Of a stretch of DNA of 33,071 bases, positions 740 to 4,025 are shown one piece after another. Origin of the DNA: Armatimonadota bacterium (GTDB taxonomy: Bacteria; Armatimonadota; DTGP01; JAKQQT01); assembly GCA_029564025.1 (NCBI GenBank), contig JAKQQT010000680.1, forward strand, positions 1-33,071, in the 5' to 3' direction. The notes below the pieces were generated by a model. That model was not told the DNA's origin. It did not search any database and saw only the letters and a list, made by a program, of their open reading frames with translations. The position numbers and the translations under genes are program-made. How positions within the stretch are numbered: position 1 is the stretch's first letter; every line of letters begins with the position of its first letter.

Positions 740-3160
740 TCAACCACCTCCCTTCAGCGCGTTGTACCGCGCCGTCACGTCCGCGGCGAAGATGTCTTTT
801 CGTTCCGGCGCCCATACCATCGGGAAGTGGATTTTCGTCCTCTTGAACGACGCGGCGTAGATGCGGTTTTCAGGGCGTTTCGGATCGGCCTTGCGCGCCG
901 CGTCCCGAAACCATGTCTGATCCAACTCCCCGGCTTCCGAAGCACCGATGAAGTGCCAGCCGTTGTCCCACACCTCCACCCACGTGTGGTTTCCCGTTCC
1001 GTCGGTCCATTTTGGAGTGCCGACAACCCGCGCGGGAATGCCGACGGCGCGGCAGGCGTCCACCAGCAATATGGACAATCCCGTGCAGGACGCGTAACCG
1101 GCCTTGACGGATTCGGATGGGCTCTGGTCCGGCTTGGGGCGCTTCGTCGGGTGGTAATGCACACCCAGTTCATCAAAGATTGTCTTGTTCAGTTGGACCG
1201 CGGCTTTTCCCGGCGTATCGAACCTCCGGGCAGACGCGATGAAGCGTTCGTGCAGTTCCGTCCTCCAGTCCTCCACCCTTTCGGAAAGGTTGAAGTACGG
1301 CAGGACATACTCCAGAAAGATACCTTCGGGTAACTTCGCGCCCCAGGGTACCTCCCGCCGGGCCTGGTACGCCAACGCCGCATTCCCTGTCAACAGACCG
1401 CCGTGTAATGCTCGCAAGTGGCGGTCCGGCATATTGGCGATCAGGAACGCGACCGCCTGCCTGTGAGCCTTCGGCGCTGACCTCAGCGCCGATTGCAATT
1501 GCGACCGGTTGGGTCCGGCCTTGCTCAGCGCGCGCGCAACCTCCGGAAGACTCTCTTCCGGAACCGGCTTTCCTACAGCCCGCACTGAGACCGGTTGCGA
1601 TTTGGAAGTTCTGACGGGGCTCGGAGTATCCATCCGTTCCGCGGAAAACCTGATGGTGTACGCCTTCCCCTTCTCGAACTTCGCCACTCCGGTCAGCAGG
1701 AGAAAGTTGTCCGTGATAACCGGCTTCCATTCTGTCCCCTCCAGCACCTTAATGTTTTTCACCCGTTTCGGCAGGAACACGGCCGGGGGACGGCCCGTGT
1801 CCGCATCTCGCATAGCGCGGAATGTCACCGTGTACACGTCCCCTTTCACGTCCAGCGTCTGGCTCCACGACAGGGAACGCAACAGATCGGCTCGGTTTGG
1901 GGACGAAGGCCTTGCCAGTCGCGCGTCCCACGCCGGATCGCCGTAAAATGCCACGGTGTCGCGGTCCCAGAGAAGACCGATCAGGTCCCGGTTCTTCTCG
2001 TCGTTTCCGTCCACGTTGAGTTGCTGAACGAGTGCATCGAGCGCCTGGTTCGCGTGGCCCCATTCGTTGAATTCGAAGTCCGCCTTATCGGGGAAGCGCG
2101 ACTGCAACTGGTGCACAAGAGCCTGGTTGTTGAGGTAGAAGGCCTCCGCGAGGGAATACCGCCCCGGTTGGTCCAGGAAGTAGTTGTTGACGCCCCAACC
2201 GCCGTAGCCGAACCACGTTTCGACCGTGTAGCCGACCATTTGCGTCACGCCACCCGAGCCCATGTATGCCAGCGCCATCGCCTGCGTGTCCGGGATATGC
2301 CCCACCAGGCAGTTTCCCACGGCGATGTTCACCTTGGGATTGGGTGAGTTGATGGGTATCCACTTCTTCTGCCTGTCGACGCCGTACAGCACCCCGTCCC
2401 TGCACCGGAACTGGCCGTTCGGGAAGGAATAGCCAATCTGCCAGTCGCGTTCCGTGGCGTGACCCGAGGTGACGAAAAGATCCGGCTTGTAGATATTGAA
2501 AACGTCGACCAGCGCCTGCGTGGTGTCGTCCGGGCATTCCTTGTCGACGGGGACTCCACCCGGTTTCTTCTCAACCATATGGTTTTTCCTGCCCTCGTCG
2601 TACCAGACGCCCTCATCGAAGACCTCCAAAGGAATGGGCGTCCCTCCCGCGCCCTTGCGCACAACCAGAGGCTCGGTGGTCGCGACGATGCGGGCCGCCG
2701 AGGTTGCGTCGTAACCCGTCAGGATTCCCCAGATCACATCCGTGTAGGGATCGCTGTCCAGTTTGCGCGTCAGGCGGTGGACATCGACCACGTACTTCCG
2801 GCCGGCTTCTTCGGGTTGCGCCACAAAACACACATATCCCGGTATGCGTTCGGCCAAAGCCGGTATGACGTCCTTCACATCCTCCTTGTAGACCAAAGCC
2901 TCCGCTGTGTGCTTGACCGCCAAGCCCCGGACGACCTCGCGCCACCCGGGATCGTTCCACGTCTTTCCTGATACGACAATCCGGTAGCCCCTCGAGGTTG
3001 TCGTCGCCGATACCTTTACTCCTTTGTCCGAAACCTTCATCACGTAGGAGGCAATTGTCGGTGGCGGGATCACCGTTACGGGCGCGGCAAATGCCGTCGC
3101 GGCCAGTAAAACCTGAATCAAAAGCGTCAACCTACGGCAGAACATCGTCATTGCATACAC
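740..3160 (-). CDS. Secreted protein with gingipain (C25)-like His/Cys motifs and C-terminal transglutaminase-like domain
   Basis: Hydrophobic N-terminal signal (LTLLIQVLLAATAFAAP); VTSGHATERDW and NIAVGNCLVGH motifs resembling gingipain GHG...GNC catalytic regions; C-terminal ASCTGLSILLVDACRAVGIPARVV...GNHTWVEVWDNGWHFIG typical of transglutaminase-like domains. Confidence 0.75.
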   Translation of the reverse strand: MYAMTMFCRRLTLLIQVLLAATAFAAPVTVIPPPTIASYVMKVSDKGVKVSATTTSRGYRIVVSGKTWNDPGWREVVRGLAVKHTAEALVYKEDVKDVIPALAERIPGYVCFVAQPEEAGRKYVVDVHRLTRKLDSDPYTDVIWGILTGYDATSAARIVATTEPLVVRKGAGGTPIPLEVFDEGVWYDEGRKNHMVEKKPGGVPVDKECPDDTTQALVDVFNIYKPDLFVTSGHATERDWQIGYSFPNGQFRCRDGVLYGVDRQKKWIPINSPNPKVNIAVGNCLVGHIPDTQAMALAYMGSGGVTQMVGYTVETWFGYGGWGVNNYFLDQPGRYSLAEAFYLNNQALVHQLQSRFPDKADFEFNEWGHANQALDALVQQLNVDGNDEKNRDLIGLLWDRDTVAFYGDPAWDARLARPSSPNRADLLRSLSWSQTLDVKGDVYTVTFRAMRDADTGRPPAVFLPKRVKNIKVLEGTEWKPVITDNFLLLTGVAKFEKGKAYTIRFSAERMDTPSPVRTSKSQPVSVRAVGKPVPEESLPEVARALSKAGPNRSQLQSALRSAPKAHRQAVAFLIANMPDRHLRALHGGLLTGNAALAYQARREVPWGAKLPEGIFLEYVLPYFNLSERVEDWRTELHERFIASARRFDTPGKAAVQLNKTIFDELGVHYHPTKRPKPDQSPSESVKAGYASCTGLSILLVDACRAVGIPARVVGTPKWTDGTGNHTWVEVWDNGWHFIGASEAGELDQTWFRDAARKADPKRPENRIYAASFKRTKIHFPMVWAPERKDIFAADVTARYNALKGGG

Positions 3161-3296: not shown

Positions 3297-4025
3297 ATGA
3301 ACGCATCATCACTACTGATCGCAGTCGCCGGAATCGCCCTGTTCGTTGGAACCTCTCCCGCCTCCGGAGCAAACGGCTACACTCCCGCCCCCGAAAAGAC
3401 CGAAGACTGGCCCGGCAAAGGCGTCGTGTGGAACGGCGACCACTGGAACAAACGCCGCGGCGAGTTCTGGGCCAACCGCGAAAAGGACAAGGGCGCCGTG
3501 GTATTCTTCGGCGATTCCATTACCGAAGGATGGTACACCCTTTCAAAGGACTTTCCGAAATGGAAGTGCGCCAATCGCGGTATCAGTGGAGACCCCAGCA
3601 GAAGCCTTGTTTTCCGCCTGAAGGAGGACGTGCTGGACCTAGAGCCGCGCGCCGTGGTGATCCTCATCGGCGTAAACGATATTGCCTCGGGCGGCCTTCC
3701 CGAAGACATCGCGTGGAACATACGCTACTGCGTCACGGCAATCCAGCGCTGGAGATCCGGCACACCGGTGGTTATCAACAAGGTGATGCCCTGGGGCAAC
3801 GCCCAGCCGCACCACCGACAGCGCATTGCGCTCCTGAACCGCATGATTGAGGCGATTCCCATCGGACGGGTCAATGTGCGCGTATGCGACACGTGGTCAA
3901 TCTTCGCCGATGAAAACGGTAATCCCGCCAAGGATGAATTCCCCGATTTGTTACACCCGAACGCATCGGCCCGAGTGAAGTGGCACAAAGCGCTGAATCC
4001 GATCCTGGAAGAGGTCGTCAAGTGA
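3297..4025 (+). CDS. SGNH/GDSL-type hydrolase (platelet-activating-factor acetylhydrolase-like), secreted
   Basis: Signal-like N-terminus; VVFFGDSITEGW (block I), NRGISGD (block II), ILIGVNDI (block III), DLLHPNASA (block V). Confidence 0.9.
   Translation: MNASSLLIAVAGIALFVGTSPASGANGYTPAPEKTEDWPGKGVVWNGDHWNKRRGEFWANREKDKGAVVFFGDSITEGWYTLSKDFPKWKCANRGISGDPSRSLVFRLKEDVLDLEPRAVVILIGVNDIASGGLPEDIAWNIRYCVTAIQRWRSGTPVVINKVMPWGNAQPHHRQRIALLNRMIEAIPIGRVNVRVCDTWSIFADENGNPAKDEFPDLLHPNASARVKWHKALNPILEEVVK

Follow-up and report, generated by a model that had tools for sequence, protein, structure and literature searches.

Introduction

Peptidases of family C25 (PF01364), represented by the gingipains Kgp and RgpB, are secreted clan CD enzymes with the gingipain (caspase-hemoglobinase) fold. 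Their catalytic His and then their catalytic Cys follow successive central β-strands within GH(G/A) and (N)C motifs, a GDP motif lies near the end of the catalytic domain, and an Ig-like domain stands behind it. Gingipain endopeptidase activity is specific for Arg and Lys. According to PMC6752024, C25 accounts for 41–45% of signal-peptide-bearing peptidase genes in estuarine sediments and is the dominant secreted class there. The Transglut_core superfamily (PF01841; solved structures 3isr and TgpA, 6g49) is characterized by a Cys/His core with an Asp at the canonical third position. The papain-like/transglutaminase (TG) superfamily includes peptidases and amidases (PMC10318531). Among titles and abstracts outside subscription journals, we found no account of an architecture fusing C25-like and TG modules or of gingipain-like proteins in the phyla considered here.

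Here we describe a gene in a 33,071-nucleotide stretch of DNA from an uncultured Armatimonadota bacterium (the window, meaning the whole stretch that was analysed). Its product joins an N-terminal C25-like module (N module) to a C-terminal transglutaminase-like module (TG module). From conservation, profile comparison and structure prediction, we propose that it is probably a secreted two-module cysteine enzyme that breaks down extracellular protein.

Results

The gene occupies the frame given by the original prediction and runs on the minus strand, which had been left unstated (Table 1). The signal peptide and every motif named in that prediction are present in the translation: VTSGHATERDW with H234, NIAVGNCLVGH with C284, ASCTGLS (within YASCTGLS, C692) and GNHTWVEVW with H725. 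The frame starts with a GTG at 3160, and ATG codons stand at positions 4 and 6, just upstream of the signal peptide; the ATG at codon 4 (3149–3151) seems the likelier start and gives a better signal peptide. Hydrophobic N-terminal leaders also occur in relatives (e.g. L003, L014 and L017).

Table 1. Coordinates of the gene and its predicted modules and residues in the window.
Feature	Position	Strand	Evidence
Whole gene, 806 aa	740..3160	minus	ORF listing, translation, coordinate check; full-length homologues L002–L009
Sec-type signal peptide, MTMFCRRLTLLIQVLLAATAFA/APV	3086..3151	minus	direct sequence reading
C25-like (gingipain-like, clan CD) predicted catalytic domain, residues ~58–415, ending in a YGDPAWDAR motif	1916..2989	minus	AlphaFold2 model, Foldseek, hhalign
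Candidate catalytic His234 (TSGHAT)	2459..2461	minus	conservation, strand position in model, alignment to the C25 GHG His
Candidate catalytic Cys284 (GNCL)	2309..2311	minus	conservation, strand position in model, alignment to the C25 Cys
Predicted Ig-like β domain, residues ~416–511	1628..1915	minus	seven model strands; Foldseek match to the catalytic + IgSF chain 4rbm
Flexible linker between modules, residues 512–525	1586..1627	minus	pLDDT <50 in N-module and full-length models
Transglutaminase-like module, residues ~526–802 (helical lead-in + Transglut_core)	755..1585	minus	PF01841 match; Foldseek 3isr, TgpA, TG3
Predicted TG nucleophile Cys692	1085..1087	minus	49/49 conserved
TG His725	986..988	minus	49/49 conserved
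Region of the TG third residue: Gly739 where Asp is canonical, Glu742 three residues on	935..946	minus	49-relative comparison

The gene is present once in its assembly. Its contig also encodes adenosylhomocysteinase, a fumarase-type lyase, ArgJ, RpoA, SecY and ribosomal proteins, which indicates an ordinary chromosome and no mobile element. The flanking genes, for the adenosylhomocysteinase (2–664, minus) and a GDSL hydrolase (3297–4025, plus), were dropped as candidate functional partners because this synteny is absent in the closest relative, L100. Closely related strains aside, no neighbour family recurred widely around the relatives, so the genomic context names no function. In two related genomes the N-module gene adjoins a gene whose ~779 aa product matches nothing in Pfam (L103:46-2382 and L104:6241-8568), and the fused locus L005 holds a related open reading frame. 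Viral contigs and a viral fold library yielded no relative; among plasmid records, the N half was found in none and a TG-half match in only five.

We scanned bacterial and archaeal genomes and obtained 51 related loci, which module mapping resolved into three architectures: fused, N module alone, and TG module alone or with other domains. Besides the window, nine fetched loci are fused (L002–L009, and L011, which is cut at a contig end); the carriers amount to about ten planctomycete-type loci. Alone, the N module forms a ~460–560 aa protein, mostly in Verrucomicrobiota and Planctomycetota, plus an Armatimonadetes bin. The TG module, also found in Calditrichota and Bacteroidota, stands alone or is joined to CBM9, SnoaL-like or dienelactone-hydrolase-like domains, and the fusions to CBM9 and hydrolase domains are in keeping with secreted degradative enzymes. 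Two large planctomycete proteins (L031:1724-5542 and L035:4789-8202) carry the same TG module with CBM9, and L031 also has a dienelactone-hydrolase-like domain. Like the window protein they are multi-domain with hydrolase-type partners, but there the partner is an α/β hydrolase plus a carbohydrate-binding domain, not a C25-like peptidase.

Within a phylum sample of 291 genomes, the N module was strong in ten and present only in a distant form in two, and the TG module occurred in 33. The two overlapped only in two fused genomes, and the eight genomes with the N module alone all lacked a TG module elsewhere; we therefore rejected a functional coupling of the halves in trans. The fused label needs four changes on the N-module tree and four on the TG-module tree, and on both trees none of 500 shuffles clusters it as tightly. 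Well-supported branches force a minimum of two changes (N tree) and one (TG tree), so that a single ancient fusion followed by losses is possible.

A Foldseek search with the full-length model (pLDDT 92.2, pTM 0.66) ranked gingipain K ahead of TG folds (3isr, TgpA and TG3). Because the linker is disordered in this model and in that of the N module, the models do not fix how the two modules lie relative to each other. With such a linker, which together with the residues that follow holds several Arg and Lys (VRTSKSQPVSVRAVGK), the protein might be a self-activating cross-linker: the C25-like module would cleave its own chain or a partner precursor, freeing or activating the TG module to cross-link surface or matrix proteins. 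Most fused relatives keep both sites, and activation by a protease is known for microbial transglutaminases. We nevertheless consider this unlikely. TG modules occur with no protease half attached, and in most genomes the N module comes without TG; mutual activation can therefore not be what the modules do in general. Bacterial TG-fold proteins are often hydrolases. Self-processing and cross-linking, both raised in the original prediction, are speculative and no more likely than plain protein degradation.

The N half (residues ~58–511) matched nothing in Pfam or NCBIfam; searching PDB sequences with it was of no use either, and PADLOC likewise returned no match. We modelled the N module with AlphaFold2 from 36 window-family sequences (mean pLDDT 90.7, pTM 0.92). 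The distant relatives L064 and L065 were kept out of this alignment because MAFFT misaligned their catalytic region, and hhalign was used for them instead. The model places a four-stranded α/β subdomain (residues 59–160) before a second subdomain with H234 and C284. In DSSP, a strand at 228–231 precedes H234 and one at 276–280 precedes C284, reproducing the C25 order of His then Cys, each after a central strand; seven β-strands at residues 432–509 then supply the predicted Ig-like domain behind the catalytic domain. Against 350,542 PDB chains, Foldseek returned gingipain K alone at E ≤ 1e-3 (6i9a, 2.9e-7; 4rbm, 7.4e-7; probability 1.00), and the matched chains span the catalytic plus Ig-like domain. 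The modelled N catalytic domain thus has the gingipain fold of C25, as the original prediction had anticipated for a structure-based check. TM-scores of 0.36–0.44, at 9% identity, mark the relationship as distant.

Profile comparison points the same way. Aligned by hhalign to 19 bona fide C25 catalytic domains of the same phylum, the N family scored a probability of 65–76% (E about 2–6e-5); H234 falls on the catalytic His of C25 and C284 on its catalytic Cys, and the helix after the Cys agrees as well. This matches the resemblance to C25 catalytic regions first noticed from the sequence alone. A TG alignment reached 0.4% probability and a reversed C25 alignment 0.1%, and the score of 47.3 compares with 23.3 for the best of 100 column shuffles. 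PF01364 did not match the window protein and weakly matched 3/36 relatives (best E 9.6e-4). L064 and L065 share an N-terminal subdomain with the N-module family (E 2.5e-9) and bear GGHG and SGACSTG motifs aligning to C25 (E 2.2e-6), L065 serving as a bridge linked to both. Taken together, the profile link with its controls, the weak PF01364 matches and this bridge assign the N module to clan CD, beside C25, and the best reading is that it represents a new C25-like family of that clan. Since the window protein escapes PF01364 and separates His from Cys by 50 residues, where the C25 alignment has 34 in its reference row (about 33–34 in C25 proper), we describe it as C25-like and leave it outside C25 itself. 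The earlier clan CD/C25 assignment accordingly holds for the clan, by profile and fold, and is softened for the family, which lies below Pfam detection of C25.

Loose fold similarity (TM-score about 0.4) at so low an identity, the lack of a Pfam match and the middling hhalign probability would also suit a different domain, a hydrolase or binding module of clan CD-like or Rossmann-like type, whose gingipain likeness is one of general topology only. This is quite unlikely, as gingipain K was the only molecule to pass the Foldseek threshold, Ig-like domain included, the His, Cys and post-Cys helix are in register with C25, none of the shuffles came near the real score, and PF01364 does touch a few relatives. 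Two observations stand apart from this comparison. L064:1366-2379 and L065:1360-2868 are unlabelled lipoprotein-like proteins encoded directly behind a response-regulator/histidine-kinase gene, and genome G000 encodes two true members of Peptidase_C25, with open frames 1298 and 2817 aa long (L076 on contig C56, and contig C214).

Conservation of the C25-like site was followed across 29 N-module sequences, the relatives being 41–59% identical to the window protein. The original prediction had staked its dyad on conservation in homologues, and C284 is present in 29/29 and H234 in 28/29. Both sit within conserved TSGHAT and GNCL blocks, S232, G233, G282 and N283 are each retained in 29/29, and YGDPAW is almost invariant. 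The sole H234 exception is the fused relative L009, with Arg at this position. The prediction thus withstands both of the conditions that it had set for its own refutation, one on the fold and one on conservation.

The C half clearly belongs to the PF01841 superfamily, by profile and by predicted fold. Transglut_core, the only Pfam match of the protein, covers residues 648–735 (E 4.8e-15, 56.2 bits against a cut-off of 23), and C692 and H725 are invariant in 32/32 TG sequences and throughout the larger set. The transglutaminase-like Cys/His core proposed earlier is therefore sound, except that the usual Asp is replaced by Gly739; this module further differs from the superfamily in the conserved helical segment, about 120 residues long, that leads into it. 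Exactly one acid stands at 739 or 742 in 49/49 TG relatives: 46 have Gly739/Glu742, and three (L009, L032 and L034) have Glu739 without Glu742 (E/T or E/G). In L009 the W735–W750 segment is as long as in the window protein, so the swap is no alignment shift. We infer that Glu742 (Glu739 in those three) acts as the third catalytic residue, the exclusive pattern suggesting that this residue has migrated. Active-site shifts are documented in the papain-like superfamily (PMC10318531), and superfamily membership by profile thus stands despite Gly739. L009 (L009:5995-8223), a marine Phycisphaerales fused protein, combines Arg at 234 with the rare Glu739 form, and its N site is possibly decaying while its TG site is kept.

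The H234R change in L009, the missing canonical TG Asp and the loose fold match to Kgp could point to one or both modules being pseudo-enzymes for binding or scaffolding, an improbable reading given that C284, C692 and H725, their flanking motifs and the single acid at 739/742 are conserved in a way that looks like selection for catalysis.

Discussion

We favour a secreted enzyme that degrades extracellular protein. The signal peptide would direct export of a chain whose two modules are joined by a flexible linker. The N module would act as an endopeptidase, cutting extracellular proteins through the C284 thiolate activated by H234. The C module, relying on C692, H725 and probably Glu742 as its third residue, would attack amide bonds in those same proteins as a thiol hydrolase or a transamidase, hydrolysis being more probable than cross-linking. 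A single chain would thereby bring two complementary amide-attacking sites to the scavenging of protein. Since relatives carry either half on its own, the fusion is probably a matter of convenience rather than an obligate two-step machine. Scavenging is the simplest reading because of the C25 share in estuarine sediments (PMC6752024) and the joining of TG modules to hydrolase-type domains.

Beside C25 proper, the protein shares the secreted, predicted catalytic plus Ig-like architecture and the dyad and GDP motifs; it differs in carrying no recognised adhesin repeats or long propeptide region and in its fusion to a TG module. A bolder version is a long shot: the N module would found a clan CD peptidase family distinct from C25 across Planctomycetota, Verrucomicrobiota and Armatimonadota, and the fused forms would be cut-and-rejoin or cut-and-deamidate enzymes, supplying the TG module with freshly cut ends or exposed glutamines.

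A natural chain with two unrelated predicted cysteine active sites offers a tractable test of TG modules as hydrolases versus cross-linkers. On sequence and model evidence, the N module appears to be a distant, hitherto unlabelled relative of the gingipain proteases, with a transglutaminase-type fusion partner. Pfam and NCBIfam searches miss this branch, though PMC6752024 reports C25-type genes as the most abundant secreted peptidase class of an estuarine sediment. As the N-module family is unlabelled in these libraries, including it would raise the counted protein-degrading capacity of Planctomycetota and Verrucomicrobiota.
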